A program made the translations under genes and the position numbers. A stretch of 64,000 nt of DNA from Liolophura sinensis (lineage: Eukaryota; Mollusca; Polyplacophora; Chitonida; Chitonidae): the NCBI RefSeq assembly GCF_032854445.1, contig NC_088295.1, positions 81,388,644 to 81,452,643 of the forward strand, read 5' to 3'. This document shows, piece after piece, positions 15,732 to 49,190 of this stretch (position 1 is the first letter of the stretch; every line of letters starts with the position of its first letter). The notes below the pieces were generated by a model, which had not been told where the DNA came from, searched no databases, and saw only the letters and a program-made list of their open reading frames with translations.

Positions 15732-18700
15732 ATGAGGCTGCTCTGTGTTCTGTACGCAATTAGCCGGACTCTGGGGTTTGGTGCTGGAGAAGCAATTACT
15801 TTGGGATTGTTGATACCTTTTGGAAATAATGGCGATATCGGCAGGCGGATTGGTGGAGCAATGAACCTGGCCGTGGAGAAGATTAATCAAATGTCCTCGC
15901 TTTCTGCTGTACGGGACATGGGTTATAATTTCAACTTTATCTTTCGGGACAGTGCCTGCTCCGCGGGCAAGGGCATGCTGAGTCTAGTTGAACTCTATCA
16001 CAATTACAACGTTCAAGCCTTTATTGGTGAGTGAAACATTTTAGTTGAAATAGTCAAGTTTTTTCCTTGTTAGTCGTCTTTTGAATGAAAAGCATCAACT
16101 TTGGCAATTGTACATGCCTGTAAAGAGTTCTTCTGGGATGTAGTACGGGTATTTAATGACGGTTGCCGTCACATATGTCTTGGATCTATATTTAGATAAG
16201 CTGTAAGTTTTGTCACATTTATTGCTCATTCTTACAGACCGCTAAGCTGAATTAAAACATGGATTAAACGCTGATGGGTTATTTCCGCTAAATCTTACAT
16301 CAATAGCCGATGAAACATGCGAAGTGCCAATTTGCATCAGTATATTTTGTTCCATGCCTTTGCTTCCCTCATGAATAGATCACAGTTCTTACTTACCCGA
16401 TTCCTTGTAAAACGCCCTTTCTCTTCTCTTTTATTATATATTTATTTCCAGCTATTCTGTGCATGTTTGGTGACTTGTACCGGTAAACCTAATTTTGTAG
16501 TTCTTAATATATTTATCTTAGAATTTGTTCCATTTGTTTGGAACACTCATCATGTTTACCAGTATTACCGGTGATAAGAAAATAGAAGGATTTAGTCTTC
16601 ACATCTACCTGTCACATCTACCTGCACAGCATGCTGTTCTTTCTCCTGGATGCTACATGGCCTGTACATGATTAGCCCATCTGCCTTCTCTTCGCACCAT
16701 CCACATGGCCTACATCATTTATGCACTAAAAAATAGTCTGTTAAATTTTACAGAAAGTCTGTTATCTGAGTGATGAAAGAATGCGTTCTGTTCTTATAAA
16801 AACATACCGTGTCATATTCAACATAATATTCTGTTAGTCTAGTATAATCTTTATGTTGAAGTGATTGGATATATGTGCTATATTTAACAGAATAATCTCT
16901 TTCAATAACATAATACATATTAAGCAGTACTCAGACTTTCTGTTAAATTTATCAGATTGATAGATTTTTGATAATATTTCCCGTTTTGTCTATCCATGCA
17001 CATCACCATCGCATACCTTAAGCGAAAAGCAAAAGATCTTTGTTCAGATAAGGCCAACAAAGAACAACTCACTACCAGCGGAAGTGGCGATCACCATCAA
17101 TTAGTGCTAATCAGACACGTACTCAGGAATTCACAGCAACCATAACAGTTTGTCTGTGAATACCGATACGACACGTTCTATCGGCCAAACTTGGCTTCAT
17201 CACGCGGCATTTACCTAAGCCAGCTTTGTACCGCTACAATTCCGATTGGGATGTTACATGTGGTGTCATATTGTTAGATCTCACACCCAATTGCAATGCA
17301 ATAGAACAATAAGAAATCTAACAAATGTCACATCCAGCTTCAAGATAATATGCCAAATTGGAGATATTGGAATCAGCCGCAATGAAAAGGAAGATGGTCA
17401 AGTCCCCAGTGATTACCTAATAAGTGCGCTTTTCAGTACCGATTCTTAATATACTGTATTATTGTGAGTGCATGCGTTTTGATTAATTTATTAATTTATT
17501 TGTTGTTTATTTTTCTTCTGTTTATTTCTCTGATTGATGTTTAACTACGTACACAAGAAGTTGTATCTCCCTTGTGTCAATAGAAGCGTTCTCGCATTCA
17601 CCGAATTACTGTATGTTGAGTGTTTCTGGCTGAACATGCATTCTGACATAAAACACTAGTACCTGGTAAATGGCTTCGAACAGCAGTACGTGGTATATTT
17701 CACAAAACAGTAGAACGTGGTATATGGTTTCGAATGGTAGTATGAGGTATATGACACAAAACAATAGTAGGCCTACGTGGTATATGGCTTCCAAAAGTAA
17801 TGCGTAATACATATCACAAAACTGTAGTACGTGGTACATGTCTCAGAACAGTAGTGCGTGGTATATGGCCTCGAACAGTAGTACGTGGTATATGACATAA
17901 AACAGTATTACGTGGTATATGGCACAAAACAGTAGAACGTGGTATATGGTTTGGAACGGTAGTATGAGGTATATGGCACAAAACAGTAGTGCGTGGTATA
18001 TGGCATTAATGGGAGTACGTGGTATTTGGCATGAAACAGCTGTACATGATATAGTATAACAGTATAGTAGTGATACATTAGTACGTACTAATACAGTATA
18101 TGGTATCAAACAACAGTACGCGGTGTATGGTCTCAAACTGTCTTACTGCATCGACAGTAATATCGGCACGTGGTACATGACATCAACAGTAATATCTGTC
18201 TATGATATAAAACAGCAGTACATGCTATATGGCATCAAACAGTAGTGGGTCGTGTATGATTTCAAACTGTAGATATATGTACATGACATCAACAGTTAAC
18301 ATTGTCATTTGGCGTCAAACAGTAGTACGTGATATGTGACATCATCAGTAGTACGTGCTTCATAGTATCAAAAGTAGTAATGGTATACTAGTATGGCATC
18401 AAACAGTAGTACGTGGTATAGATGGACAGAAACAGTGCAGTGGCATATTTCATGCACAGCTGTAGGTGCTACATCGTATCAACAGTTGTAGTGGCATCAA
18501 AAAGCCGTGCGTGTTATATGGAATCAACATTAGTATGTGGTATATAACATCATCCGCAGTAGTAAGCATGTATATACGTATGCTTGGGGTTTAACGTCGT
18601 ACTTAACAATTTTTCTGTCATGTGACGACGACGAGTCCTTAGGTGTGCGTACATTTACTGTGCGCTTTTGGCAGGGCGAGTCCATGCCACCATGCAAAGT

Positions 18701-21700
18701 GCTGTCGCCACTGAATATCATGTCAAAAACATCAGACAAAACACCCCACCCAGTCACATTATATTGACACCGGGCCAACCAGTCATGTTTCCTTGACCTA
18801 ACCTCTCAGTGCTGAACGCTAAGCGAGGAGGCAGCAAGTACCATTTTAAAAGTATTTGGTATGACCCGACCCGGGTTTGATCCCGGATACCCCGACTTTG
18901 AAATAGTGGTAGTGGTGTATGGCATCAAACAGTAGAGCGTTGTGTATGGTCTCAAACTGTAGTAGTACGTGGTATTTGGTATAAAGCAGTTGTACATGAT
19001 ATAGTATAACAATATAGTAGTGGTGCATGACATTAGGCATTAGTATGTAGTATATGGTATCAAACAGCAGTACGTGGTGTATGGCCTCAAAGTGTCTAAC
19101 GTGGTATATGGCATCGACAGTAATATCGGTACGTGGTACATGACATCAACACTAATAGAGGTCTATGATATAAAACAGCAGTACATGCTATAAGGCATCA
19201 GACAGTATTACATGATATATACATGGTATCAACAGTAGTAGTGGTATGTGGCATCAAACAGTAGTACGTCATGCATAGTATCAACAGAAGCAGTGACATA
19301 TGGCACGAACACTAGTACGTGTTATATGGCATGAACAGAAGCAGTGGCATATGGCAACAAACAGTAGCACGTGTGAGGCATAAGCGCAAGTCGATGCATA
19401 TTTCATGAACAGTACTGCGTCATACATGGTATCAACAGTAGTAGTGGCATATGGCAACAGACAGTAGTACTTGGCATTTGGCATGAACAGAAGCAGTGGC
19501 ATATGGCATGAACAGTAGAACGCGCTACATGGTATCAATTGTAGTAGTGGACATCCATAAACAATGTCCAAAACCCGTATATGGACCAGATGGAATTGCA
19601 AAAACTTGCACGAACTGTAGTATGTGTTATATGACATAAGCGGTAATACGTGCTGTATGATAAAAAAGCAGAAGTAAATGGTAACTTGCATCATACGATA
19701 GTACATGGTATATAGCATCAAGCAGTAATACGTAGTGTGTTGTCTCCAACTGTGGCACGTAGCATATGGCATCAACCGGTAATACATGGTATACTGCATC
19801 AAGCAGTAGTTCCTGGTATATGGCGGTATCAACAGTAGTGCGTGCTAAATTTCATCAAACAGTTGTACGTGGTATATGGCATCGCCAGGAGCAGTGGTGT
19901 ATGGTATCAAACACCAGTAAGTAGTACACGGCATCAAATATCAATGGTGGTATATGGCAGCAAGCAGCTGTGTACGTTGTGTGTGGATGTCCTTTTAGTG
20001 GTTGAATTCCATGCTGGTAATGACGAAGTATTACACCTTGTGTTCTTTGCAGCTATCCATTGCGCTTTCATCTGGTGTGTGTAGAGATCTTGAGCCTTGT
20101 TTAGTTTATAGGCGCCCCGTTGTGATTCCTCCTGGCCCATATTGCCCTTTTTCTTGTTTATGTGTGTGTCCACTGCGGATGTGTCTGGTTCATATACGGG
20201 TTTTGTGCATTGTTTTGTTCAAACGCACCAGTTATGATTCTGTCTGGCCCACACTGCGCACAGTTTCCTTTATGTCCACAGCGATCTCGTTTGGTCCATG
20301 TACATGTACGTGTTTTTCACATTTTCTTTTGTCTCAACCAAATTGCACACTGTTTAGCTTATAGGAGACCGTTACGACTTTGTCTGGCCCATATTGCGCA
20401 TTGTCTTGTTTACAGGTGCCTACTGCGATTCCGTCTGTGGTCCAGGTGGTCTGTTGTCTGCCGAACTTAATTTACCTATGATCAGCTATGGATGTACCTC
20501 CACAGAGATGTCCGATAAGACCACCTACCCAATGTTCGCCCGGACAGTCGCTCCCATCACTAAGGCATCCATATTTGTTGTTGACATCCTCAAACATTTT
20601 AACTGGACCCGCATTTGTATTCTTAGCGGCGAGCAACACCTCTGGCATCTTGCCACCAGCAGTTTTAAGGTGAGTTCAGCAAAGATTGCACAAGTCTCTT
20701 CCATACCACGAGAGAGTCCAAATCTTGAAAAAAGCTAAATTCTGACACTGACAGTTTTCACTTGATGTGGTGTTTATTGAAGTTAAGTGAACGTTATACA
20801 TGGGACACTTTTTGCGCGGGTTAAACCATTGTCTTGTAAACTGAATTTGTGAAATAGCAATACTTGATAAAACAGTAGCTGTAAATAGCATTTAAAAGAT
20901 TAAATTAGCAAGAGTCGAAAAGTGAATATAGAATCAAGTCATTCGAGTTAAATGCCCACCGGTCACTTTACAGAAAGATCTGGAGGCCAGCGGTATCAGG
21001 GTGAAGAATACATATCAGGTGGGCATGTCGGAGATGGGAAGCAGTTCAACAGTTGAGAGCGCTCTGCAAGCCACAAGGGAACAAACCAGGGGTAAGAGTA
21101 CTAATAATAATAAGTAAGAGTCTTTTTACGACCTTCACTGAACGCCCCATTAGCGATCTCGAAATCCATGCGAGCGGTAGATTCAGGGTCAATCCTGGAT
21201 TGAATCACACCTAAGACCTTAAAAGAGGACGTTGTAACGTCCTCGCTTGGCGTTCAGCATGAAGGTGATAGTGCAACGACTAGTTGGCCCGTATCAGTAT
21301 AATGGCTCCGGCGGAGCGGCTTACTTGCCTTCCGTAAAGCGTCTCACTGAAGCGGCACTAGATAAAAGAGCGGTGGAAATCCATCCTGCAACAAGGAGGC
21401 ACATTACATGCATTCTAAGGATTCCTTCGTCGTCATATGACTGAAAAATTGTTAAGTACGACGTTAAGCCCCAAGAACTCACTCGCTCGACAGCCATGCA
21501 GTTTTCAGATTAGATGCGTTGTCGGTAGCATTTCGTGTAAACGGATGACATCAATCTGTCTCAGGTAGAATGACTACCTGAGTCCGGATTTTCACCGGTG
21601 ACGTGTGACTTTTGGCAACTATATCACACCATCGTCATTGCTTCATTTTTACTCTTCATGCTGTAATCCTTTATATTCAATATATTCAGTATTCATCGCT

Positions 21701-24700
21701 ATTTTTTTTGACTGTATAGTATGATCTGTCTGTTGTTTCTGTCTGTAGTGTTCTTGCTTTGTCTGTACGGAAACATGGTGGACATAGTGATGAAAACTGC
21801 TCAGACTCTGGGGATGTTGAATGGAGACTTTGTGTTTTTGTCACTGGAAGCCGAACTCTCTAATCACGTGACCACAAATACAAACACAGAAGGTCACGGT
21901 GGTCACGGAGATCATGCTTCTCACAGGCGAAAGAGAGAGGCCGACCTAGAGAAACTCTACCAATCAAGACAAAAGAGAGAAATGACGTCATCAAATATGA
22001 ACATGTCAGATGGCATGGTGCCAATGAACATGTCACATGGCACGTCGTCAATGGATATGTCCCATGACATGACAACAGGGCATACGTCCGGGAGGATGAT
22101 GGTTCCAAAAGACAGCCACCTTACCGGTTAGACTTTTATCGTGTAAAGAATCCAGCTTTTGTTTTAAAAGACTAAACTACACTCGAAAAAATGATCTGTT
22201 GAATTTAACAGAAAGTGTGTTGTTTGGGTGATGCTAGAATGTATTCTGCTATTCCAGCAGATTGTTCTGTAACTCACATATTCTATTAATTCAACATAGA
22301 TATTCTATTACACTCATAGTATATTGTGTTGAATATGACAGATTATTGTGTTGTAATAACAATACATTCTAGCATCACTCAGCTGATTAATTTTTTGAGT
22401 GCGTTGAATTTACTTTATAACATAGCCAACGTATATATTTATATAAATCCATGCCACTTACAAAATAGAGATATTACACTCTACGTTTTAGCGCAAACCC
22501 TTGTTCGTGTGTATGTTTCAGAAGCCCAAAATCGTATTTATGGGCCCTTTTGTTCCATTGTAGATATATGCACTGATACAAATCTTCAATACGAAAATCA
22601 AAAGCTACAAATCTATCACACTATACACTGCGCGTAAACAGCGCGATTGTCTACTTCGGTATTGTCCTCTAGAAGCTAACTAAGAAACAGATCATTGAAG
22701 CACAACGATCGATTTATCTCAGCTAATGAAACAGCTTCCATTAAAGTACTTCATCTATATACAGTAACTTGCTCTGAGGTAAGTATGGAAGCCAAATATT
22801 CATTATTTAGCAAATACAAACCATGTGCATTCTATGCATTATCTCTCTCGGATAGTTTTTTTTTCAGCTACATCTATTATTAATTTCAAACGCCAAATCA
22901 AGCCCCAAAGCCGTAAATTTTTTGTCCTGTATCATTATGCTATTAAATATACTTAATTTTCCTGATAGACCAGTGTACAATTTATTTATCGGTCTGAATC
23001 ACGCTTACATAAAATCCATCACATGGAAACGTCGGTGTGTACACTTATGTTGTCATTTCAAATATGTGAATCCAGTTCTGTCTGTAGCTGTTTGAAGTGA
23101 ATTTAATCATTGTTCAGCTTGAAAACACCGAAATGTATAAATAGGTGATTGATATGTTTAAAACATAAAGATAATTTGAATTCAGTCATTTTTCTGCTCT
23201 GTTTGAAATACCGGATAATGCTCTGTTTAAAAAAACTACAAAAATGTTAATTCAACCATTGTTCAGTTAGGAGATACCAAACAAAACGGTGAATCCTGCC
23301 ACTCAAACAAAAAAACAATTTGAAAAAATCAAACAACATGAACTCAGCCATTATTTTGTTTAAAAATCCAGAAAACAGTGAGGCCAGACACTGTCCTGTA
23401 TGAAAACAGTTGCAATATTTATATACACACACACAAATCGCACACATGCTAAAGGCTGAAAACCTAGCCGTTGTTCCGTTTGAAACACCGAAAATGTGAA
23501 TCAAGATGAACGTTTTCTGCTTACAAACATAAAAAAAATGTGAACCTAAAGGCTCTTCTGTTCTGGTTGAAACCCGTAGCAAGAAGTACACAATAATAAT
23601 AAAGGGTTGCCCCAATTAACACATAAATGAAAAATGACAGACACAACAATGGACCCCAATTAGGGACACAAAGAAAGAAATATAGAAATGACTAAAGGAT
23701 ATTAATGTACACTTTTATTTAGAAACGTAAAAAGATATAAGGTAATAAACTTTCTCCTGTTCTCAGGTTTCATACCCGCAAGTAACACGCCATTCAATTG
23801 TTTTACGGCACAACCTTAGTGAATACAACATACTACATGTATGATTAGCACTGTTATGGTCTAAGTCTGGTGATAGATTACTAGTTAGAATATTTTCATT
23901 ACTGTGCCCATTGATTGGATATGATATGTCAGGTCTCTTGGACGTGACGGTTTTGGAACCTCAAGACAACCCAGATTATAACCACTTCATCCACAAGGTC
24001 CGAATGGCTACCATGATGCCACCATTTTCCAGTCATCTGGACAACGAAACAAAGGTAACGGAATCGCCAAAGCACGTTCCTTAATTAACCATGGCAAAGG
24101 AATTGATCACTCTCATGAATGTTATAACTCAAAGGAATCTCAAAAGCGAGTAGTACCCTATGCGAAGCAAAACGATGATGCATGTAACGCTTTACACCTA
24201 GATGCACCAATAACTACTGTTAATGTTTACCATAAACCACATATATGTAAGAGAAAATGTATCTTGCTGTAGTGCATATGGCGGGCATCTTGGCCACTGT
24301 GGCCAAACAGTGAAGTGCAATGGGCCGCCATGCTCCAGAACGAAACCTGTCAAATCACCAGGTTTTATGCACACTTGCAACCACTCTGGCTTCTATACAA
24401 TGAATTGTTTGAAGTTGTGACGTGTTAAACATCCTTGAAAACCTTTGTCATCACTACAAGAAAAGACTTATATGCCATGACAACACAATAAAGCAAAACT
24501 ATATCTATCACACGATGAGTACTAACGAACTCAGGGACCGTTTCATGTCACATCCAGAGTGAACTTCAAACAGGGAAGTCCCATTCATGTTAATTGGGTT
24601 TTCTGATTTAGTTTAGATTTACGATGACCAAATTTCAAGGCTATGAGACAAAAGATAGAAAAAATCGATCATACACAATTCAGTTATTAGCACTGGTATC

Positions 24701-27700
24701 ACTTGACATTGGAGATAATTCGTTTGTGAAACCCATGTTCACTGACAAGGCAGATTTGTGTCTTTTTTGTCGGTTTTGTGTTCATTTTGGCTCATTCATG
24801 CTGAAATATTTCGAAGCTATGGTTTAAACTCAGTGCCGAATCTGGTAAAGAATGACGGTTTTCATTTCTTGCCGTTTTAACTTTCATGATATGCTACATT
24901 TACCTCTTTCACACTAAGTATTTTAACATTTAAGTTTGCATTTTTGATGTACTTTATTCGTCATACAGGTAGACTTGGATGCGGCCTTCCTCTATGATGC
25001 TGTTCTCCTTTATGCCCTAGCTCTGAATCGAACTCTGGCCTCCGAGGGAAATATTTCACAGGTATCAGAACACCTGTTTGGTTGGGAATTTGAAGGTGAG
25101 TACATCCACCGTCAACGGGTTCGAGCTTTGACAATAACAAACTAAGATGACCAATAAGCAAGTTTTAATCAATTATCAAAATGATCAAAATAATAGTTAT
25201 CAAATAAATTTCATCGTTTGCCTCTTTCTTCACTGCTTTTTGACAGGTATCGATGGCCTTGTGGTTGTTGACCATAACGGAGACCGTAGGCCGAACTATG
25301 TCTTAAGGAATTATGTATCTGGAAGCTATGTGACCGTCGCTCACCATTTACGGGCGTAAGTTGGGCCCATAATGCTCGTCTGGTTACTCTTATATCATGT
25401 CAACTGAATACATGCATTACATTTGCGCACACAGAGTAGGAAAAAATGCTTGAAGCAACATACTCTGTTGGAAACAACAGTTGTGATAATAATTTGGCAG
25501 CACCAGTTATTATTGCAGTATTTCTCTATTTCTTCAGAAGATAATGTAAATATATTACATTTTTGTGTGTCTTAACTGATCAAGTGTAAATGATTATATT
25601 GTTTATACACGACAGCAAAACTAATTTTTAATAATTATACACGAACCTAGGACGCGAAAAGTTAACTTTAGTGAGGAGGCGATCACTTGGCCAGGAGGCG
25701 GGAAGAGTGTTCCTCTTGGGCGACCAATCTGTGGCTGGCAAAATGAATTCTGCACTGTTTCTGTCGTGGGTGAGCTTTACATAGCTGTTGGTATTAAGGC
25801 ATCTGCATAGCCGTTTTAAATCAAATGTTAGTTTTTTAATGTGTCCTGCTGACTGTTCTGACCGCAAATTCCATGGAGATAAATTTTCTGTAATTTATAT
25901 GATTTAATATCCGTTTTAATGCAATACGTGAAATCCGCTTTTTTTATCTATGTTACATGTATTTGATAATGAAACCAAATGTAAAAAAAAGGCACACATA
26001 TATTTTGGTTAATGATTAAATGTACTGACTCAGCAAGTTTCTTGTATTATGCTACAGTTTGTTCCTATATTTGGGGAGAATGAGCTATAATCTTAAAATA
26101 AAGCCGGAAAGCATGTCGTCACATCTCGGATGCTAATATCTTTCGATAATTGTGATTTTAAATGTAACTCAGGTTAATCCCAATACATTTTCCAAAAGAA
26201 ATTATACGTCACTAGATTGTGATAGAACTCCCGTATCAACTGTGTCTAATTCTCTCACAAGGCATCATTTATTCATGTTGTTCACCTCAAACGAGCACAG
26301 TGCCTAATTTTTACATAATATACACTGTATCGCTCATTTTAGATTTATTAAAATTGAGATCAGTAAGCTTTATACCAGCATAAAACATTCGTCTTTAACC
26401 TCAGTTATGTTAACGACACATGGGAGGGAATAGCCAGTAATGGCCATGCATGAGAAAAGACCGTACTTCTTCAGGTGTATGACAAATCTGCTGGGGCAGT
26501 GACATGGGACAGTGTCCCAGCTGTCATAGAAATTCATTATTCAAAAACTTCAGTAGTTCAGCGTAAAAAAAAAACTCTGGTAAAATCTCAACACGCGATG
26601 CATGTAACAATTATACCTATGCTATATGACATTTGTTCACAGACTTAACTACGTGGATAATCGGTGGCATCTTCGGCTTTGTCGTTTTTGTGGGTATTTT
26701 AGGCCTAATATTTTTCATATATAGGTGTGTATGCTAATTGTCTTCCTTTGTAAGCTTTAATTTGTCACAGTAAATTTAGAATCCTACTCCACATGCGCTT
26801 TTTGACAACATTTCTTTGATATTTTTATTAAAAAATTCATTCCTACAATCTATAATATACCTCTGCCCACATCTACACAAATGCGCAAAGCGAAATTTTC
26901 TTGCTTTCTTATACATACAAGGTACTTGCTTTTTCTGAGTTACATGTAACTATCTTATTATGTTGTGGCGATATGATACTGACTTATAAACATTACCATT
27001 CAACCATAAGATCGGTAATTACAGTCATTTTAGTTAACCAGGTTAAACAAAGCAGCTAAATTACCCAACGTAATCTAATCGTGGGAAGTTTATAAATGTA
27101 TGCGCTTAGTACTTCCGTTGTCAGTTGTTTTTAACGAGTGCAGGTAACATGTATTGCTGGATGAATGAGAATAAAATATAACGGAATAAGAAACTTCCAC
27201 AAAACATTATGCGAAAAAAGAAAGAAATTGCTATCCACTTTATTCTTCTGAGCTGTTGAATGTAGATTTTAACTCTTAATTGGATTGGATTTAGGAACAA
27301 AAGAAATGCAGCTCGGATGTCAAGTATGGCATGGAAAATAAGCTACGATGAAATTCATCCAGTGAACAGAGGAAAGACGCTAGGATCAAGCTATAGCATT
27401 AAATCATACAGTACTGGCACAAGCAAGGTGGGTTGATGGATAAGTTCTATACTAGTAACCTACTGGTTTATGTTTGCCACATTATAGTGTCGTGTAAGCT
27501 CGTAGTAGGAGTTCACTTGCTGTTCATTTGTACAGTGGCATTTGCAACCATCCTTTATCCAGTGGCCTAGATGGAGATGCCTCTTACCGTTATACTGTCA
27601 TTTCCTGCCATTTGCAATTTCCTATCGAAGTTGAGTTAATAATGTTGACATTGTATGAGATAAATTGGAGGGAACTTAATTCACCTGTAATGCTGGCTAT

Positions 27701-30700
27701 TAGCTGATTAAATTTTTACAGGAAAGAATCGCTCTGTACAAATTACATTCCCACGAGGAATTGATGTTCAGTAGTATCTAATTATTCTCATGGTGTTTGA
27801 AGGTGGCCATTGAAGCTGAACGATGATAATGTTCTCTATATGACTTCGTTTGACAATGTATGTTTCAAAGCAGATATCAAGCTTCGAGTAATAAACTGCG
27901 AACTGCTAAGGTATTACCAGCTGTTGTCTATCTCTCCACAATTATAGAAGTATTCATATATATAGTATATTATAGAAGTAGTCATTAATGAATAAGTTAA
28001 TTGCACATGTCGAGCACATTTTGTCTATCACATTTACCAAACTTTGTTTGAATCTTGGCATCTTTGGCTTTTTAAATGAGTTTTCTTTTGAAAAAAGGAA
28101 TACCAGGTAAAGTGTACGTATGAATGTATTTGTCAGTTTCAAATACATATTAAAAGATTTTAATGTTCTGTATTGACAGAGTCAATGTGGAAGTAGCTTG
28201 ATGAATTATGACCAGATCTTCTGCCAGACAGCTTTGTATCGAGGGGGCTTGGTTTGCCTGAAGCACTTGGAAACTCGACACGTGGTTCTGAACAAGGACG
28301 TGCTTCGTGAACTAAACACGGTATCCACACACATGTTCTCAAATGTCCCACGTGTATGGATCTGTTCATGGTTTATTCAGAACACTGTTCCCCTTTGATG
28401 ACTTAAAATTTGCTGTTCGGAAATACACAGCTCTGTAGTGAAGTGATCGTTAATCACAGTTTGTGCAACCACGGGTGGACACTACATGTCCGCTGCAGCG
28501 ATTTTAGATTGGCCATAGAGCATCAGCTGGTCGTTGCGTGTGCATTGATTTTTAAGGTACCAGTACCATGCAAACACACACAGCGGCAACACATCTTCAG
28601 TTGTTTTTGAAAGGTCAATATATATACCAGCGTGTTTATATGTGTACAGGTATTTTCACTTTTTCTTCTTTCCGATATCTCAATAAATGTAAACATATTA
28701 AGATACAGTTTTGTTTACGACAGTACAGCACACGTCTACTTATAACTATATATAGTAGAAGTGTCTTTCGATTAACCAGATACAGTCATTTCAACAGGAC
28801 AATTGTCGGTCTTGTCAGCTGCTAGCATTGCAAAACCTGGCAGTGGATTTGCTCCAAGCACCGCCGACAAACTGCGTGTTTTTCTTATAGAACAATAGTC
28901 TGGTCAAATATCCATGACATCAATGCAAATAAAAGCACCTTTAACTATATGGGCCATATACATTCAGGGCACTGCTAAACTGCATGCCTTCTAAAGCTTT
29001 GCTCACACGTGTTCTTTCCTACTTGTAACCCATTATACAAGTAATCTTCACATTTGAAAATATAATATACTATGAATACCATTCCTTTTTTGTCAACAAG
29101 TTCCGTTTCGATGAGATGTGTGTACCGGTACTAAATGAATTCTTAAAGAGCTTATTCCCAATGAAATGTCGATACCCGTAAAGCTTCTCAATTTGGTACA
29201 TGAAGTGAAATCTTCCTTATTATGTCGCTGTCCATACAGGTTTACACAAATCTCGTAGATTAAGTGAAATCGTTCATCCCATGTCGCTTTCCATCCGGGG
29301 TTACATGTGAATGAGCTTTTCTCTTTCTTGTTGTAGACCAGAGAATTAAAACACCAAAACGTGAACGCGTTCTTTGGAGCCTGTGTGGATACCAAACACG
29401 CAATGCTGGTCACAGCGTACTGTCATAAGGGAAGCCTTCTAGATATCCTTGGCAGCGACAAGATCAAACTGGATCAACTTTTCAAAGTGTCGTTTGCGTT
29501 GGACATAGCAAAGGTGAATTGTGTTATAATAGTTAAATTTAGGAAGTATTATAATTGGTGCCTACGTTTTGTATGTTTAAACATTTCCTTGATTCTGATT
29601 GATCGCTAGTTCCATACAATAAGTGTTTCAAATATTGTCCAGTTTTGACAAAACTTTGTGTCCAGGTTCATTTCGTGACCTCTGCAGGCAAGTTTGAAAA
29701 CTCAATAAGGTCTATAAGTTTTGTAGACTTAGGATGGGATATAAATAGGTTGTTGTCATTATTGCAGGGTATGGAATACATTCATCGATCAGATATCCAG
29801 GTTCACGGGCGCCTGACTTCCTCCAATGTACTCATCGACAACAGATGGCAATGTAAGGTGACCGATTTCGGCTTGTTTTCCATCTTACCGCGGGAGGATC
29901 CAAAGAACTGTGGAGAATTCGCCTCTTATCAAAGTGAGAAAGAAGTGAAATAGCTAATATAAAGATTTGTCTCAAACGTCTATGTGTACAGTTGATTCCG
30001 TGGAATAAAATATCCGTATGTATGTGAGTTTTAAAAATGTATACAGATGTGTTATAACTATATGCGATGGCTCAATATTATAAGTATTATCAATATTATA
30101 TTATTAAGTGTTAAAATGGATTGCTACATGGGCAGAGGTTCAGGAACTATGGTACTGAGTAAAACGTATATTCAAGACCTCATGCAGTATTTAGTTTCCT
30201 CCCTTATGATTCATAAAGGAACATTAAGGCCCTGATGGTATGTACTATTGAGTTTAAAAACAGATGGGTCTATTGAATGGTGGTATAAAACCATTTCTTG
30301 GCTCTTAATCTTTCTTGCACATTTGTGTCATGTTTTATATATGCTTTTTTGCTACCTGTGTCCTGCTAGAGAAACTTTGGTTGGCCCCAGAGCATCTGCG
30401 GACCCCTCAGCCGGGCAGAAGTGTCCAGGGGGACGTGTACTCCTATGGCATCCTTCTCCAGGAGATAGCTCTACAGGCCGGTCCTTATGACAACGAGGCG
30501 GAAGAACCAAAAGGTATAAGCTTCCAATATCATCGCTTCTCGCAATTAATTTTTATTTAATTTTTATTTAAGATGATTCATGGATTTTAACGAAGGCCAC
30601 CTATTCTTTTGTTGTTTTACCCTAGTACTGATTGATTAGCCAGGGCATTTTTGATCAACATAAAATCTTAATGCTTAAATGTTGTCATGAGCAAAAGACT

Positions 30701-33700
30701 TAATATTTTAACATGACCTCTGTTTCCGTGTAGTCATTGTTGAGCGTGTGAAGTTGGGCTCTCAACCGCCGTTCCGCCCCAGGGTTTCGCCTCTGGCCTG
30801 CCCTGACAGTTTCCATCGCCTGATGACCCAATGTTGGACAGAGAACCCAGGCGACAGACCAACTTTCAAAACCATTCTGGCGAGTTTAAAAACCATGAAT
30901 ACAGGGGGGTGAGTTTTTAAACCTATCAGCATAAGACAGTTCAGAGGAAACATTTACAAAGGTTAACCATCACAAAATCGGAAGATGTTCAGATCGCTAT
31001 GCTCCACAATCTATACGTCCACAATTCCTATAATAATCTAGAAGATTGTTAAAAGAAATCCTAAGTATTTTGTACATAGCAAAATATTTCTAGTACATGT
31101 TCGTCAAAACTATTCGTCATACCTGTCCCTTATATAATTGTGGTACGTTATCTGGCAGTTGATTAACGCCACAAACAAGGATTTTTCACATATATGATGG
31201 AGGTCAAATTTATAGGTTGGAGGAAACTCCCTTCTACACATGTGGCCGTCAGCGAATGTAAGATTTGGCAGATGTTCTCGTGCACGTCGTCGGTCACTTA
31301 CTATTTACTGTAAACAGGGGATCTACTAACTCCCCGCGCATGCGTTGAATCCGCACCCGTTGCGTGTGTTTCGTCGTTTGGAGTCACTCACTATCCGTCA
31401 CAATCTTGACCCGTTGCCAAAAGTCATGATCCTAGTACATGTTGGCAATGAGGTCTTCTTGGAATAAATTTATTTCAACCACTGGCCTCATATTACTTCA
31501 CACAAATATCGAGGTACTATTATATAGGCCTATCGGTGCCGTGACACGATGTATCCGTCTTTCATTTATTTAAACCGGAAGGGAATATTCCTCCAACCGC
31601 TTTTGGGAAGTGGACAAGGAACTAAGAGTATAAAATGGCTGACTATGTTTTGCAATTTGTTAATTTTAAATGTTCTTCATTTCTTCCTTCGCTTTACTTC
31701 TTACCGCCACACTCGTCACATACGACTAATTCACATATATATATTACAAAGCGATTGATACCTGCTGATCCATTCTTTGGTAAATAAGACGACTGAGACA
31801 ATGTCAGATTTCACTTAAGTGTTCTTTGCAACAAATGTTGGGTAACTCACTGCATGTTTGTCAAAAAAAAGGAATCTTTGCCAAAGCCTATATTTGTCAG
31901 TATAAAATTGACTGTGTGTACAGACAAAATGATTATCAGGGTGCTTTATGTGGGATTAGTAGACTTGCCATACATCTAAATATAAAATGCATCTAAATCT
32001 GTATTAAATATACTCTGCCCTTTGTATCGCATGCAGAAAGAAAACAAGCAGTCACAGCTATACATTTATCGAAACTTTTCATTCATAAAGTAAGGATCAG
32101 TTTTGTATTATTGCTTATTGCATGTATTAGAAAGTTATGAAGGTAACAATTTTGTTAGGTGAGTGGTTTATGGTATTGGTCGTAAGTCTCAAATGCTTTG
32201 GGTTAATGAAATGGATTTCATACACAGAAAACAGCTGAGCCCTCGTTCGGAAGATTAACAACTGGGGTAATATGATTGATCAACTAAGACATAAGCGTCT
32301 GCACAAGGCTCACGCAATCACTATTTTTTTCTCTAAATACGAACTATATATATTTATATACATAGTTCGCATTTAAAGAAAAATATAATTGTGATTATGA
32401 AGTCCTAGTTTTCGATAAACAGCAAATAAAATATTGTCTGGAATAAACGGGAGTGAAATTTATTATTTGAGTTTTCATTTAATGTATGGTTTTAATAATA
32501 AATATAGTCTAGATTTCAAAGGTCAAAGCCATGAAAGGTACAGGGAAAGCTTTACCAGAGTGCTGAGTATATGCTACTTTAGTGAAGCATTATGTTACAG
32601 GAACATAATGGACAATATGATACATATGATGGAGAAGTACGCTACTCGTCTGGAGGACATTGTAGAGGAGAGGACCAAACTTCTGGTACAAGAGCAGGCG
32701 AAAACAGAGAATCTATTGTCCAGGATGTTGCCTAAGTGAGTCTGGGAGACAATGGCGTTAATCCATACTGTCCACTGACTAAGGGCCTTTCATATCTGTA
32801 AACCTCCTGCCAATACTGGAGGCCCATTATCCTTTACATTTAGTACATCACATGGTTTCTAATTACATAACCTTCAGGACACATATTTGGTATAATCAAG
32901 GCGTATATAGGTGTCAGATGTTATTTATTTATTTATTTATTTATTTGATTGGTGTTTTACGCCGTACTCAAGAATATTTCACTTATACGACGGCGGCCAG
33001 CATTATGGTGGGAGGAAACCGGGCACAGCCCGGGGGAAACCCATAACCATCCGCAGGTTGCTGGCAGACCTTCCCACTTACGGCCGGAGAGGAAGCCAGT
33101 ATAGGCTGGACTTGAACCTACAGCGACCGCATTGGTGAGAGGCTTCTGGGTCATTACGCTGCGCTAGCGCGCTAACCGACTGAGCCACGGAGGCCCCAGA
33201 TGTTACATAAATAGTGTTCATACAAAGGCTGGGCATAGGAATAACTCCCATTCAGTTTTGAAGAACTTGTATAAATTAACACTAATCAACTGATTTTGCT
33301 CTGAATTATATTTTCGATCATCATGAGATTTGATACTGACAGTTTGAAAACACAGCATGTGATAGCCTGTTATCTTTCTCTTATTTGTCTCTGGTCAAAA
33401 CTCTCTGTTGGTTCATGCAGCGGGTCTACAGCGGAGTGCCTTATACTACATATAGTTAATTTGATTCAGGATATTTTGGGACCTGGTAAAATAACATCAA
33501 CAAATTACCCTCCACACATTATGGGATCGAGTAATTTATATTCATAAATTAACTTATTCATTCATTAAGCTTACTCTTATACGATTACTGAGCTCCATGG
33601 CCGACAAAATCATTAATTCATGTGCGGTTTTGAAATTTGCCACCACATATAAGCAGGAGTTTTTATTTACATTTAGTTCGGCAAATTGAGTAGAACGTAG

Positions 33701-36700
33701 AAGACCAATCAAATATATAAATCAGCTCAACTATCCTCCAGTTTTGGTGCTATTAAACCCAGTTCGTACTGAATGAATTACCAGACACCATGTTCTACTC
33801 TTTGTTAAAATTGTTTGCAGGCTCGTAGCTGATGAGCTGAAGGCAGGAAGGACAGTCACGCCAGAATATTTTGAGGCAGTAACTATCTACTTCAGCGATA
33901 TTGTTGGATTCACAGCCCTCTCATCAAGAAGTACACCTATGCAGGTACTTTGATCGTTACTAACCGTCTCTGCGGAATGTATTACAAAGTGCTTCAGGAA
34001 AGTAGAGAACTTGGACGGTACTGATGTGCCGGACAGTAATTTGCTATCTGGCACAATTCAACCAAGGAAATTGGTGGTACGTGTGGTAAGTAGACAATAC
34101 TGTGCAAAGGCCGCGGAACGAGGCGGGGTGGGGGTACTGTAGGGATTGTTGGGGGTCGGAGGTGGTGGTGGGTGGAGCTGAAGGAGTGTTCTAAACTAGG
34201 CACCTGGGCCATCTAATCAGAGTCATATCCACCCCGCTCCAACCGCCCACTACCACCACTACTTCTCTATTTGCGTCTGAAGCACTCACCTACAGCAGAA
34301 ACAGATCTCTTAGTATACTGCTTAGTATAATGCTTTAATACTTTTGTTCCAAATACATGTGAATTCCTTGGTGGGTATGGATGTCACTTTCTAATCATAT
34401 ACCGGTGACGAACAGATGACGAATTAACTTCATATAAAAGTCGAACGTAGAGTATGGCATTTGGCCGAGGTTTACGTGAAATACACTTTAGCGTGATACA
34501 AGGAAAGGAGAATGATCATTAATGGGTCCATTAATATAAAATAACGACCCATCCTTTCCCATTTAGAACCTGTGCTGTATATGTTGTGTTGTGAAATAAC
34601 TATGAAGGTCACAAAGATTGTGTTTCTTCTCTTCCTACAAAGTGTGAGGTTCTTAAAGAATGTGAACTGCGTGCGGATGTGCATGATACCAGATACTAGT
34701 TGAATTGTATTCATTGAGTGGAGCTATGGTACAAATCATTCGTTAGAATGGGGCTGCCATTAAACCAATATATATATATATATATTCACTGAGTGACATA
34801 GGCTGCTTCAGAACCAGATAATTATGTCATTTCAGAACTTCGCAACTGCAACTACATGGAGTGAAAGGAACGTTGCAAATACTAAATTACGGTGAAGCAT
34901 CAGATAAATGAATAAAGTTATCAGGGACTCGGGATAAAGGAGGAAGGTGATAAACCTCTCCGAAAATCAGAGCTTTGTCGCACACATGAAACACATTTCA
35001 AAATCACAACCGAGTACGGAAATGTCAGGCATATCTCCATGTTTAATATCCTACCGCAATATTATCCTATGGGCGATTTATTGGTAAAGGTAACAAGAAG
35101 TCGTACTATGTCATGTGACCTGTCAAAAATGTTAGGGAACTATTTTTTATAACTTTTACTGCACGGTCGTCTAAAAAAAGCTTCACACAAAGATATTCAG
35201 AATAGACGAAAGATGAAAAAAAACTGAATGTGGTGAACGTTTGTGAACCTCCGAAGCACGATGAAACAATTGATCGGTAAACTCATGTCAACAAAGGTTG
35301 CCTACCATTTTTGACAAGTTACATGACACAGTAGGACTGTTTTTTCTTTAGCAACAAAGGTGTTCGAACCCAAAACTCCTCGATTATCAGGTGATGGACG
35401 TCACCTCATCTTGACAGGCATATACCCTATCCACACCAAGGCTTCATCTGTCCTTAGTCACTAAATCCGTGACCTTCCACTGCGTTACTCTGTGAATCTG
35501 ATTAGGTCACAGTCCATTATTTTATTTTCTTCTGGTTATATGGGTAATAAATATCTTACAATCTTTATAGAAACACTGCGGTACAACTGCGTAGTAGGAA
35601 AATATATCTGAATATATCCGAAATGCAATGCTGATGATTATGAGCAACGGGTGCAAACAAAGAATTGACATCAAATGTTTTACATATATTCACTTTTGTC
35701 CATGAATTATACAAACAACCTGTGGTTGACTTTCAACTGTTACTACTTTGGTAATCGAATGCTTACATTTCGTATCCGTAAATTTATCTTGAGAACTAGA
35801 AGATATATGCATGAACTGTCAAGTCGCAAAGGTCAGTGTTTGTTGCTCTTGTATATTATATCGTGTTTTGGCATATACACTGTTGACCATAAAGTTGGAA
35901 TAAATTAATTCGACGACTGAATTCGGAGTTATTCTAATTGTACGCGGTATTGAATGCTTGATTATGGCGTAGATATCAGCATAACACCAAATGTTGGTCT
36001 TTTCTTCACATATCAGCCTATTGTAATCTTTAATGAATCGATTATAGGCTGTAGAAAGGCGTAAAAACAAAAACTGGCATTTCAAGACGAAAGGATTGAA
36101 GGCTTTACTGCAATGTCTCCATATCACAAACATAAACGTATTTGTTCCCTTCGTATTATAAGTTACAGACAATACAGTTTGTAAGAGAAACAGTCATTAA
36201 TATCTCGTATGACCACCCCTGACACGAATCAATGCGTCAAGACGTCGTTGCATGCAGTCGACCAGATTGTTAATGAATTCAATGGGCAGAACGTTCCACT
36301 CATTGATCAGAGCCTGTGCCAGTTCTTGCAGATCCCAGGCATGTTCTATTGGGTTCATATCAGGGGAACACGATGGCCAAGGTAACTGCTCCACCCCTTG
36401 TGCCCGAAGAAATTCTCGTGTTGCAGCGGCCCTGTGTGGTGTAGTGTTGTCGTCTTGCAAACGAAAATTGTCTCCATAAACCCTTCGTGCGTATGGAAGG
36501 CAATGGTTTTCAAGGATATCAATGTACACGACGGCGTTGACGTTTTCGTCGGGCACCACCAACGGCGTTTTTCCACCATAGTGAATACCGGCCCAAACCA
36601 TTACTGAACCGCCACCCCCTTGATTGTTTTCCTGCACACAGTTATCTCGAAGGCTTTCTCCTCGCAAACGACGAACCCTTTGCCTTCCGTCCACAGGTTT

Positions 36701-39700
36701 CGGGAAGAAGCGACTCTCATCCGTGAAGAGCACATGTCGCCAATGCCCTAACTGCAATTGTCTGTGCTCCCTAGCCCAGCGAAGCCTTTGGACTCTATGT
36801 TGGGCGGTTAGGCGGGGACATTTGGTCATACATCTTGCTCGATAACCATGCTGAAGTAATCTGCGATTCACCGTTGTTCGGGAAACATTGATTCTGTAAT
36901 GCCTCCGCCACAAACGGCGAAGATGGTTCGCAGACATTTTCCGGCTTGTGCGAGAGAGATTGAGCAGTCGGCGGTCATCCCGTCTCGTAGTTAGTCGTGG
37001 TCGTCCTGGAGTTTGACGTGGCCGCAAATGACCCACGTCTCGATGACGTCTGATGATTTTGCTGACTGTACTTTGCGATATGCCTACAAAATCGGCAACA
37101 TCGGACTGTTTGTAGCCTTCTTGATGGAGGGCAATCACTCTCCGGCGTATTTGCATTGGAGTAGCACGAGGCATAGCCGGAATCCCCGCTACACTACTTT
37201 TTGTTCCATGCGAAACCGAGAACTCCGTTATGCGCGAGGTAATCTGACCTCTCCCTGAATGAAGATCACTGGAGAAGCACCAGGCACAGGGCTTTTTATC
37301 ACTACCATCAGAGCCTCTTATGTAATTCTCATATTAGCATAGAATAAAACATTTTTGTACACGTAGTAGAGAGAGATTATGCATCAATTCGTGTCGGCTT
37401 ATATTATTTTTGAGGCGAAAAATAATATTAAACTTCTGGGATTGTGGCTAAAATATTTTATTCCAACTTTATGGTCAACAGTGTATTATCACCACAGCGA
37501 TAATACGACTGTACTTCAACCTTTTTGCATGTTTAAAAGGTCTTTATTCAAGCATATTCTAAAGGCATTATTCCGTGTTGACTGATGAAATGATACTTTG
37601 AAGCCCTGAAACTGGATCCAACCAATTTAGTTTTGTCTCCAAAATGAAATTAAAAGTGTGCATAAATGACACTGAAATTTGCTGTGTCATGTGTGAAATG
37701 GTTGAGGAATTAAAGGAAGCCAACGGAATTAAAGTAAGTAAAGGGGACATGATTAGATCGAAGGAAAAGACTTTTCTTTTATTTTGGAGTGCTCTCTCGA
37801 ACCACCAAACACATGTAATGTTTACTATAATAATAAGTTAAGTGGACCAAGTTAGGGTGTCCGAGCAAATTTCAAAAAGGAGTATGAAAAGTATCGTAGC
37901 GTAGCGCTGAGACAACAAAATAAGACATCCAACTGTTCTTTTAATTGTATGAAAGAAACTGAAACAGGAAGTAAAGCTCAGCAGATACACAGCTGAAAAT
38001 AATACGCAAAAAGAGTTCTATCTCTATTAAGGTTTGTGAAATATAAGGTTGCAATTACGAACCGTATATCTAGTGTTTAGGTACTCTGACATCACAAATT
38101 TCATTCAATCATCTGGAAGACGAGAAAAAAAATTTTCGAGTAGGGCGTTACTCGCAATTTAAATGAATAATGATACTAATGTGACTTTTGTTTTCAGGTT
38201 GTTGGATTCCTCAATGATTTGTACACGTGCTTCGACACCATCATCGAGAGCTACGACGTGTATAAGGTGATGGACATATTTTTACCTCTGATGCATAACA
38301 AATTTACGATGAAGGACTATGCGTTATTGAAGCATTGTTATGGTACACGCGAACAAAGGCTATACCATTCCTTCAAAGGAATATACCATCCTTTAATATA
38401 AAACATTTTTATATTGCAAATACTCCGTGAATGTAAAAATCAATAAGCACCTGAATGTCGATAGATTTTATCGCCTCTCCACCTATATATAACCGAAATT
38501 TTTCATTCTCAGTATTGTGTAGTCATTCAAATGTATAATTATTCAGATGTGCAAATTCCTCTGTAATGATAATTGTTTCCATTTTCCTTTCGACTTATAC
38601 AAAGGTGGAAACTATTGGCGACGCCTACATGGTAGTAAGTGGTCTGCCTCAAAGGAACGGAAACCGCCATGCTGGGGAAATAGCCAGTATGTCACTAGAC
38701 CTACTCGTCGCGGTGGGCAGTCTAAAAATACGCCACCTTCCCGAAGAGAAACTAAAACTGCGAATCGGCTTACATACAGGCAAGTGTGCTCCATGTCTGC
38801 TACAGTACACCCAGACACATATAAACGCCAATAAACGACCCCTTGTCACTACATGGGAAATCGTTCCCCGCTGGTGCAGCAGTAAGGTGTGATTTTTTCT
38901 TACAAAAGACGGGGAAAACTTATTTGAATCTAATTGTAGTTTTGTGGTTCATACATTTTCTTTTATCGGAAGGCAGGAGGATAAAGTTTGAGATAGTTGA
39001 GAAAGTTTAAAATATGGTTATGTGAACCAAAATTAGTTGTGTACACGTATATATGTATGACCTTAGAGTGTTGTAAACTATTTCAAAGTGCCTTGTTGGT
39101 TGGCGCAATCATGTTTTTATAAATGAACAAACTGAAATATTTTCTAGGGCCATTGAAGCTATACATTCTAAATAATATTTCATTATTTACACTCCTATCT
39201 GCATGTAGTTGCAAGAGGTTGTAAAATGTTTACTGAACTCAAGCATATTTCACTAATTAAACGACGGTGGTCAATTTTCATGGGTGGGGGAAACCAAAGT
39301 TCACAGAATGAACCACCAGCGTTTGGCGCGTACCTAACGAGCATTCCCACATGTGATGCCCACATTTTCAGCTGCAGAGCGAACTTACTTTATGTGTTAC
39401 ATTAATGTAAGACGAGTTCATGCTCTCCAGTAAACATGTCAGACCACCTCACAAGCCCTATATGAGCGCTGTTCACCGCATTTGCCGCCAAGGCCTTGAG
39501 AACAATAGTTGCAGAAGCTCGAAATTCCCTGCCCAAGGAAGTGGGCTGCTGGTCAAACGTAAGTATATGGCCAGCTTTGTTACAGAGTATAGCAATCTTT
39601 TGCCAGGATCCTGTGTGGCAGGGGTGGTAGGGCTGAAGATGCCAAGGTACTGTCTCTTTGGCGACACAGTCAACTACGCCTCCAGGATGGAATCTAATGG

Positions 39701-41734
39701 ATTGCGTAAGTTTCACCGCAAAACTTTACCCTGAAAACATACACTATAAACGCCAACTAAAACACTTTATACTTACATCATGCTTACTTGATAAGCCTTA
39801 AACTTTAACGAATGCTGAACGTTTCAATGAATGCCACTTTTTAGTGACCTATGTCTATATGGGTTTTGTTTCACTGTGAACGCTGGGGCTGTACAATGCC
39901 TTGGAGATATTTATTTATTTGATTTATTTGATTGCTGTTTTACGCCGTACTCAAGAATATTTCACTTCTACGACGGCGGTCAGCATTATGTTGGAAGGAA
40001 ACCGGCCATGGAAATAAGCCATTGGACGCATGGCGTATCAGTATTGGGCATATAACGGAAAATATGAACAATGAGGAAAGCCAGGAGAACATCTTTGTTA
40101 TATAACGTGCAAGGGAGCAACTATAGGCCCCCTATGAATCCAATGCAGGCTTGGTTAATTCCCAATAATTAACGACACTGAAATCAACAATCAGCACCAA
40201 AACAAGAATTTAAATAATTTGAGCAATAAAAACCGTGTCCAGAGATTTGAAATCATTTGTAACTAATGTGATTAACAGCTTTGAAGATACACATGAGCCC
40301 CGAGTGTAATGCAGCGCTGATGGCCTTAGGTGGTTACCAGACTGTGGAAAGAGGAGAGGTAACTCTCAAGGTAAGCGGGGGCCTAGATCTGAGGTCTGTT
40401 TCATTCTTCCCAGCTTAGTTTTCAGAAATACAGATCTATGAGTAAGTTAGTGCTTGGGGTTTTATGTCGTACTTAAAGATCTAAACTCTTCCATTCATTA
40501 ACCTGGAAATGCGTCTTTTTGATTGTGTTGTCTTCAATATGTCCAAGCTACAAAAAAGTGTTTTCTCTAATTCTGCAGTAATTCTGGTTTCATATTACCT
40601 AAGTATGAATAATAAAGCTCATAACGTCACAATTATCACACGTGTAGCTGGCTCATCGGCAGCAATCCAAACTGAGTCAGACGTACTCGGCATCGTCCGG
40701 AAAAAGATTAACTCGCAGAAGGATTGGATTAAAAGCACTGAGATGTAAGCACCATCTAAAGAGCGACTGGTAACTTGTTGGGGAGTCTTAACTTTAATTT
40801 GTGTGTTAATAATGAACAGAAAGGAGCAATAGTCAATCACTGTGAAAAAAGGAGATGATCTTACTTTTGGGAAGAGCAACGGAGTCCACCATGGCAACGG
40901 AATGATTAAAAAAAAGAAAAAAGACACCCCATCTCAAAGCTAGAGGAGGCCATAATAATATAGTCTTGAAGCGCTCCTGAAAACCCATACTGTACAAGAC
41001 CGAAGTCATTGGAACTAGTCCATGAAAGCGCACAGAAAACCATTTCCAGGTCGATATTTCAAAAATAGTCAAGACTGCATGACTAACATAAGCTGGTCAT
41101 CTTGATGACTATCACTTTGTCAAGCTGATTCTAGCTGGTCAGAATGATCGCGCCACTGAAATCGAATATAATCTCTGACACAAAATCCACGACAGGTGCA
41201 CGACCTGTGGTATCAGTTATGTAAAGAATTTATTTATTTGATTGGAGTTGTACTGAATAATACTTCACTTATATACCTCCAATGCCAGCATTATTCTTGG
41301 GAGGAAATGGAGTAGAACCCAGGGGAAACCGACAACCATGTGCTGGTTTATGTGTAAAAGATTGTGCTGCCAAATAAAACTGTTTTAAAGGCTAAGGTGG
41401 TATTCAGCATTATACCGTTCAGCACCAGCACCAGATTGCAGCAGACATAAGCTAGAAGCAAACTAGGTATATTTTTAACAGCACAACACGATAACCAATT
41501 TTGAATCTGTAAATCCCCAGTACAAGCCAAGTTAGCTCATGAAATGGCGCCCCTTTAATGAGAAAAAGGTTTTGTTTCTTTGGGAATGTATTCTTAAACA
41601 AAGAAGTTATAAAGATTCAGTTTGGACTAATTCTTACATTCTTTGTTTCAAAGGGCAAAGGAACAATCATTTCATACTTCTTGGAAGGACGAGATGGGTT
41701 TGACAAAGTTCTGCCAGCAGTCAACGGGATTTGA
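15732..41734 (+). CDS. Receptor-type guanylyl cyclase (natriuretic peptide receptor-like), 22 exons
   Basis: A single-pass receptor that makes cGMP from GTP. Exons: 15732-16026, 20416-20669, 20974-21091, 21749-22126, 23933-24054, 24969-25095, 25247-25355, 25651-25769, 26643-26724, 27295-27427, 28180-28320, 29337-29513, 29768-29933, 30370-30513, 30734-30908, 32601-32735, 33821-33944, 38198-38266, 38605-38779, 39607-39705, 40279-40370, 41654-41734. All phases agree, giving 1104 codons. Order: signal peptide (1-19); ANF-receptor ligand domain ([13 protein letters not shown], then the juxtamembrane ITWPGG and CGW); membrane segment (about 509-534); kinase-homology domain (560-835); coiled linker with VEERTKLL; cyclase (892-1095). 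The kinase part is inactive-type: HG-R-L replaces HRD, while V-T-D-F-G-L is kept. The cyclase keeps the metal aspartates ([21 protein letters not shown]), the guanine-specifying Glu (VETIGD) and Cys ([11 protein letters not shown]), and N-x-x-S-R. Odd points: a His/Met-rich insert in exon 4 and a GC donor after exon 19. The orthologue within the NPR family is not fixed; the ligand is unknown. Confidence 0.95.
16723..16971. repeat. MITE-like element in cyclase intron 1
   Basis: The left end GCACTAAAAAATAGTCTGTT and the right end (reverse complement ATCAAAAATCTATCAATCTG) are roughly inverted. Both lead inward to AACAGAAAGTCTG. The interior carries ATTCTGTTAG-type phrases shared with the element at 22180-22403. 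Confidence 0.5.
17640..19960. repeat. Degenerate minisatellite in cyclase intron 1
   Basis: About 2 kb of loosely repeated 25-30-bp units, consensus close to CAGTAGTACGTGGTATATGG followed by CATCAAA. It is interrupted by a SINE at 18581-18900. Individual units are diverged (GTGTATGG, GACATCAACAGTAATAT and so on). Minus-strand open frames rich in Tyr, His, Val and Leu across it are by-products of the repeat. Confidence 0.85.
18581..18900 (-). repeat. SINE (family B-related subfamily)
   Basis: Read on the minus strand, the head ends in a GATCAAACCCGGGTCGG-type B box and GGTATGACC. The centre has GACTGGTTGGCCCGG and TCAATATAATG. The 3' end is AATTGTTAAGTACGACGTTA followed by AACCCCAAGCA. The middle differs from the copies at 3526 and 21145, so it is a distinct subfamily with the same tail. 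Confidence 0.75.
20047..20445 (+). repeat. Tandem degenerate copies of the exon-2 acceptor region
   Basis: Units starting near 20096, 20153, 20213, 20266, 20349 and 20401 share the pattern CTTGTTTA-x-x-TATAG/ACAG, then G-x-x-C-x-x-x-TGCGATT, then TCTGGCCC(A). The last unit contains the real acceptor TTTACAG and the first codons of exon 2 (20416 onward). Spacing is roughly 50-80 bp. Some upstream copies still end in AG. Confidence 0.6.
21145..21488 (+). repeat. SINE (family B) in cyclase intron 3
   Basis: Near full length. It shares TAGATAAAAGAGCGGTGG, GGAGGCACATTACATGCATT and the AATTGTTAAGTACGACGTTA tail followed by CACTCG with the copy at 3526. The tRNA head is more decayed, and an extra GACGTTGTAACGTCC hairpin is present. 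Confidence 0.8.
22180..22403. repeat. MITE-like element in cyclase intron 4
   Basis: The ends ACACTCGAAAAAATGATCTG and, inverted, CGCACTCAAAAAATTAATCA are imperfect terminal inverted repeats. Further in, GTGATGCTAGAATGTATT at 22228-22245 is repeated inverted at about 22361-22378. It has no coding capacity. Confidence 0.65.
23060..23590. repeat. Degenerate tandem repeat in cyclase intron 4
   Basis: Six or so diverged units carry GTGAAT-x-CAGCCATTGTT, then C-x-GTTTGAAACACCGAAAA. Clear copies lie near 23098, 23180, 23250, 23338, 23460 and 23545. Confidence 0.5.
32924..33197 (-). repeat. Full-length SINE (family A) with target-site duplication
   Basis: Complete from the tRNA-like head (reverse of GTTAACCG...CTGAGCCACGGAGGCCCC) to the AAATA tail. 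AGATGTTA at 32916-32923 is repeated at 33198-33205, so the insertion ends are exact. It lies in cyclase intron 16. Confidence 0.9.
35878..37483 (-). mobile_element. Tc1-like DNA transposon in cyclase intron 17
   Basis: A 1606-bp element bounded by TA on both sides (35876-35877 and 37484-37485). It has perfect 27-bp terminal inverted repeats beginning CACTGTTGACCATAAAGTTG and ending GGAATAAA. It carries one transposase frame on the strand opposite to the host gene. The identical terminal repeats indicate a fairly young insertion. Confidence 0.95.
36197..37174 (-). CDS. Tc1/mariner-family transposase, DD34E
   Basis: An open 325-codon frame inside the transposon. The N-terminal part has two helix-turn-helix units (about residues 5-48 and 62-115) separated by a GRPR minor-groove motif at 57-60. 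The catalytic triad is D152 (LFTDESRF), D242 ([11 protein letters not shown]) and E277 ([11 protein letters not shown]). Exactly 34 residues separate the last two. The C-terminus ends GGHTRY, as in many relatives. One anomaly is that the segment usually found between EHAWD and LQELAQAL (about 15-17 residues starting with a GRR-type motif) is missing without a frame change. This explains the slightly short protein and may abolish activity. Transposition is cut-and-paste at TA. Confidence 0.93.
   Translation of the reverse strand: MPRATPMQIRRRVIALHQEGYKQSDVADFVGISQSTVSKIIRRHRDVGHLRPRQTPGRPRLTTRRDDRRLLNLSRTSRKMSANHLRRLWRRHYRINVSRTTVNRRLLQHGYRARCMTKCPRLTAQHRVQRLRWAREHRQLQLGHWRHVLFTDESRFFPKPVDGRQRVRRLRGESLRDNCVQENNQGGGGSVMVWAGIHYGGKTPLVVPDENVNAVVYIDILENHCLPYARRVYGDNFRLQDDNTTPHRAAATREFLRAQGVEQLPWPSCSPDMNPIEHAWDLQELAQALINEWNVLPIEFINNLVDCMQRRLDALIRVRGGHTRY
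39233..39400 (-). repeat. Very decayed SINE (family A) relative
   Basis: ACTCAAGCATATTTCAC, ACGACGGTGGTCA and GGTGGGGGAAACC are recognisable family A phrases. The rest is diverged. It lies in the cyclase intron between exons 19 and 20. Confidence 0.5.
39910..40007 (-). repeat. Truncated SINE (family A)
   Basis: An AAATA tail plus the 3'-most 80 bases (TTTTACGCCGTACTCAAGAA, ACGACGGCGGTCAGCATTAT). The tRNA head is absent. It lies in the cyclase intron before exon 21. Confidence 0.8.
41228..41345 (-). repeat. Truncated, diverged SINE (family A)
   Basis: TTTATTTGATTGGAGTTGTA, CCAGCATTATTCTTGGGAGG and CCCAGGGGAAACC match family A. The head is missing and there are many substitutions. It lies in the last cyclase intron. 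Confidence 0.7.
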
Positions 41735-45309: not shown

Positions 45310-45366
<57 letters not shown>

Positions 45367-49086: not shown

Positions 49087-49190
49087 ATCGGCGGCACGGT
49101 TCGGGCAAGGAGGGCAACTTTCGGCCAAAATGAACAACGCAACCTTTCTCGTCTGGAGTGATCAACTTTATGAATGACAGCTTATAAAGG

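Follow-up and report, generated by a model that had tools for sequence, protein, structure and literature searches.

A probably translated, Met- and His-rich loop extension with two furin-type sites in the ectodomain of a chiton receptor guanylyl cyclase

The window analysed here, which is the whole stretch of 64,000 nucleotides of Liolophura DNA, holds a receptor guanylyl cyclase gene whose exon 4 carries at its 3' end an insert of 78 codons (21892..22126, + strand). This insert is rich in methionine and histidine, it bears two furin-type sites, and it is likely to be translated as an extension of an extracellular loop. We regard this loop extension as a genuine feature, unusual but modest as a variant within a known receptor family, and missing from the paralogs compared. 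As to its origin, we lean towards a coding extension of the exon that would have been gained through a shift of the splice donor, giving a flexible and probably cleavable loop that is perhaps alternatively spliced. If translated, the insert would clearly exemplify how a receptor ectodomain can acquire a large loop, built from repeats and potentially cleavable, probably by donor shift, and it would open a testable way towards a guanylyl cyclase made of two chains or responsive to metal. To our knowledge, few ligands are known for the receptor guanylyl cyclases of molluscs. If the insert is only an intron, it is a warning against reading open repeat DNA beside a weak donor as protein.

A chiton genome of this genus, that of Liolophura japonica, has been published (609.5 Mb, 632 scaffolds; PMC11068029). 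By its domain content the gene in our window is a receptor guanylyl cyclase, as the original prediction had it, since the ANF-receptor, kinase-homology and cyclase domains are all matched by Pfam. Exons 1 to 7 can be joined on the + strand with AG/GT borders and matching phases. Exon 1 (15732..16026) has a start codon, a signal-peptide-like start and the first part of the ANF-receptor domain, which is matched by Pfam ANF_receptor, and it ends at the donor TTG|GTGAGT in phase 1. The domain continues in exon 2 (20416..20669; Pfam E 1.4e-17; donor AAG|GTGAGT, phase 0), in exon 3 (20974..21091; donor GGG|GTAAGA, phase 1) and in exon 4, which in its long form (21749..22126) comprises the end of a strand and the insert, and has its donor CCG|GTTAGA at 22127. 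Exon 4 is in phase 1 at both its start and its end, and it is compatible with exon 5 (23933..24054; donor AAG|GTAACG), for which the counterpart exon of a paralog is GLLDITFEDDYNHTEYLLF. Exon 6 (24969..25095) also belongs to the ANF-receptor domain, and exon 7 runs from 25247 to about 25355, the position of its donor being approximate. Altogether, the ectodomain matches Pfam PF01094 (ANF_receptor) over nearly its full length, with an E of 8e-54 when the insert is included and 5e-55 when it is left out. The kinase-homology exons (~29337-30912, + strand) belong to the same gene as the guanylate cyclase exons; one of them matches PF07714 with an E of 7.6e-9, and more kinase-like exons were found besides. 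The exons of the catalytic domain (33800..39735, + strand), once joined, match PF00211 with an E of 1.2e-55, and the usual catalytic motifs, NYASRME among them, are all intact. Within the parts of the cyclase gene that were read, no sign of decay was found.

The content of the insert was correctly described in the original prediction, and its elements can be read in frame on the + strand. A His cluster of 12 residues (21889..21924) is followed by the site RRKR|E (21925..21936), then by RQKR|E (21967..21978), both of them true matches to the furin consensus, and finally by three 27-bp units, MNMSDGMVP, MNMSHGTSS and MDMSHDMTT (21997..22077). Methionine and histidine make up 19 of the 78 residues (24%), against 7.3% in the remaining ectodomain (binomial p 2.5e-6). 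When the insert was shuffled 20,000 times, two R-X-K/R-R sites arose in only 13 cases; the remaining ectodomain holds none. The three MxM motifs, on the other hand, do not exceed what the composition gives, as about 14% of the shuffles contain three or more. We also noted within the Met repeats two N-glycosylation sequons (NMS), which had escaped the earlier reading.

Part of this content goes back to repeats in the underlying DNA. The Met part is, at the DNA level, made of the three tandem 27-bp units, and the word CATG occurs 6 times in 120 bases where about 0.5 would be expected. Depending on the register, CATG is read as ATG (Met) or as CAT (His), so that the joint richness in both residues has partly a single DNA cause. 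The upstream His cluster is mostly written in CAC codons and is a feature separate from the CATG repeats. The two dibasic sites lie in purine-rich DNA on a 14-nt near-duplicate, the DNA of the RQKR site being an 86% copy of that of the RRKR site, which lies 42 bp upstream; because of this near-copy, they are not independent inventions. The insert is single copy, no other copy of its DNA or of its protein being found in the genome by a search that skips simple repeats, and an origin from a dispersed repeat or a transposon was set aside on this same search, which gave no second genomic copy. As a separate observation, long repeat arrays are also present in intron 1 (17606-19844, - strand), where their translation gives CHIPRTTVL-like units.

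The insert falls into a variable extracellular loop of the ANF-receptor domain, between the strand ending in DFVFLSL and the strand LLDVTV. This placement, already proposed from the letters alone, is borne out by the alignment of the flanks with the corresponding loops of NPR-C, NPR-A and the paralog. In NPR-C (1jdn) the flanks are FFNIELF (~250) and SLQTVTLL (~272), and in NPR-A (GC-A, 1dp4) they lie at ~242 and ~280. Over the ectodomain, the chiton gene has the ANF-receptor domain in common with NPR-A (E 6e-16) and NPR-C (E 2e-15), and it shares with GC-A the kinase-homology and cyclase domains as well. Their loop is about 20-38 residues long and has no Met repeats, whereas that of the chiton gene reaches 97 residues in the long form (19 in the short form discussed below). 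In the chiton paralogs L070, L068 and L066, 29-33 residues separate FVF from the intron. Since the loops of the paralogs and of the NPR proteins are ordinary compared with the 97 residues found here, the extension comes to about 65-78 residues relative to the paralogs, somewhat less than the 85-90 first estimated.

The paralog on scaffold 1 (88494869-88504500; L048/L056 and L070) is the closest to exon 4, with 53% over 30 residues. In L070, the intron has the same position and phase as in our gene, and the next exon starts with GLLDITF where ours has GLLDVTV, but its loop of 29 residues lacks the insert and includes a helix-like segment, ARRSALDIAM. The original prediction had named the lack of His, Met and dibasic residues at this loop in close relatives as a sign against it; the relatives compared here are all paralogs, distant ones from the same genome, and in these the insert is indeed missing. 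Just upstream of exon 4 of this paralog there is a minisatellite with units of about 50 bp (L070, ~850-1450), which ends near the splice acceptor.

Exon 4 has a second donor-like site, which was absent from the original prediction. This site, GAAG|GTCACG (21893..21894, + strand), is in phase, it falls in the alignment where the closest paralog ends its exon (scaffold 1:88503594; ..ALDIAMEG|GTGAGA, then GLLDITF), and its use would skip exactly the insert. With a textbook donor matrix, 22127 scores +0.8 and 21893 scores -0.6, both below the other donors of exons 1-6, and two such weak in-phase donors have the look of alternative 5' splice-site use or of a displaced donor. They also allow the insert to be read as an intron. 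In this first alternative, which we hold to be improbable but worth serious weight, the real donor would be at 21893, the loop would be short and ordinary, and the open frame with its histidines and methionines would be a chance product of a CATG-rich minisatellite, the six CATG words within 120 bases being in keeping with such an origin. Indeed, the short junction NTEG|LLDVTV fits the AMEG|LLDIT of the paralog better than does the long junction HLTG|LLDVTV, the nucleotides GAAG|GT being identical, and the short form matches Pfam ANF_receptor slightly better than the long one (187.4 against 183.5 bits). However, GTCACG is a poor donor and the weaker of the two, and the short loop would be about 10 residues below those of the paralogs and would be deprived of their helix-like segment.

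The statistics of the insert itself bear on the same question. Its codon score is 0.02 per codon, against 0.13-0.21 in exons 1-6, which puts it clearly below most of the neighbouring exons, and the synonymous codon score is neutral, which favors the intron reading. Against that reading, 9 of 167 open intron windows reach the codon score of the insert, and the 78-codon frame stays open up to the donor at 22127, with the stop falling at the donor, and the openness and the fit of both splice phases reported from the outset thus hold. An equally open frame is found in about 0.7-0.8% of the intron windows of this gene, and in 0.08% of them such a frame also ends at a phase-1 donor as strong as this one or stronger, the latter being a rough figure obtained from overlapping windows. 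The G+C content also argues for an exon, as it falls from 49% within the insert to 30% over the 234 bases after 22126, a drop that comes at 22127 and not at 21893; a G+C content as high as that of the insert is found in 6.8% of the intron windows. From these properties of the DNA, we consider translation of the insert likely. A small intron within exon 4 was also envisaged and rejected, as a reading of the region by eye showed no acceptor preceded by a pyrimidine tract.

According to the donor-shift explanation that we favor, the ancestral exon 4 would have ended near 21892 at the older donor GAAG|GT. With the loss of the consensus of this older donor and the presence of the downstream donor at 22127, 234 bases of repeat-rich intron would have become coding, and the older site at 21893 may still yield a short isoform. 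The similarity between the start of the insert and the start of the paralog intron is not significant (p 0.15), which counts against exonisation, but such a lack of similarity is expected because of divergence. In the long form, the loop would act as a flexible His/Met-rich tether bearing the N-glycosylation sequons, and during passage through the Golgi a furin-like convertase could cut it at RRKR, at RQKR or at both. The cut receptor would then be made of two chains that stay associated, as in other receptors that are cut in a surface loop. Furin-processed receptors of the cell surface include the insulin receptor, Notch and similar proteins; as in the chiton loop, the insulin receptor and Notch have R-X-K/R-R|E in an extracellular segment, where cutting may leave two associated chains. 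Cleavage of the chiton loop is plausible as judged from the consensus. In a single-sequence fold of exon 4 alone, which is of low reliability (pTM 0.24), the dibasic sites are in a helix and not in an open loop. Our literature search found no furin-processed receptor guanylyl cyclase of such a kind.

The repeats could also have built the loop without any change of donor. The insert would in this case be constitutively coding and present in chiton orthologs, and it would have grown inside the exon by 27-bp and 42-bp duplications into a flexible linker with no special function. Such a history, to which we grant a small chance, agrees with the 27-bp tandem units, with the 14-nt repeat at a distance of 42 bp and with the variable length of the loop at this place among the paralogs and NPR-A/C, but it leaves unexplained why a donor-like site lies exactly at the position used by the paralog.

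Chitons handle iron and copper in bulk, and the original prediction had likened the insert to the extracellular copper-binding segments of CTR1-type transporters. This resemblance stands for composition, the CTR1-type ectodomain (Pfam Ctr; human SLC31A1) and the insert being both extracellular and rich in His, Met, Ser and Asp, and it fails for homology. Indeed, the local alignment of the insert with the Met/His-rich N-terminus of the chiton CTR1-type gene is no better than with shuffles (p 0.16). Beyond composition there is thus no alignment to a CTR1-type transporter, nor a Ctr domain, and both the topology and the gene family differ; no relative of the insert was found in Pfam (including Ctr, PF04145), in the PDB or in this genome. 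Exon shuffling from the CTR1 gene was discarded, since the insert is single copy as DNA and as protein and the CTR1 similarity is compositional. The chiton CTR1-type gene itself (C13:23167350) has as its Met/His-rich N-terminal exon HMMNAGDHSGHSMSGMDMGGSSGGVAMDHSGHGNLSMEHSMM (L059, reverse complement from 5336).

A receptor that senses metal, in which the His cluster and the Met repeats would bind Cu(II)/Cu(I) and in which occupancy or furin cleavage would gate the cyclase, strikes us as very improbable. In its favor, the insert does recall the N-terminus of the chiton's CTR1-type gene, and its His and Met-x-Met/MDMSHDM units resemble the copper-handling clusters of human CTR1, whose ectodomain binds copper through His-Met-Asp clusters (PMC8867124). 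However, composition explains the similarity to the CTR1 N-terminus, the MxM count is no higher than composition gives, histidine and methionine come in part from the one CATG word, and there is no link between the loop and the binding of a ligand. The composition permits a weak binding of metal, from which sensing does not follow, and any such binding by the insert would, speculatively, be a side property of its His and Met content. We give still less credence to the combined idea of an exonised, furin-cleavable and metal-binding loop through which extracellular copper or a convertase would gate cGMP, possibly in one splice isoform only. Searching the literature for a receptor guanylyl cyclase linked to copper brought up none.

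Several other features of the window were seen by eye around and within the cyclase gene. Upstream of it, frames at 10105-11470 (+ strand) look like a hAT-type transposase or a domesticated relative, and one of its introns holds a mariner/Tc1-like transposase with an intact-looking frame of 378 residues (36197-37333, - strand). Exons of a gene for a TPR-repeat protein (MYDEESDGGPKGTFEIYKAEADTLFKQGEYRKAIHSY...) are found at 43400-49161 on the - strand, and this protein is possibly a TTC25/ODAD4-like ciliary protein.
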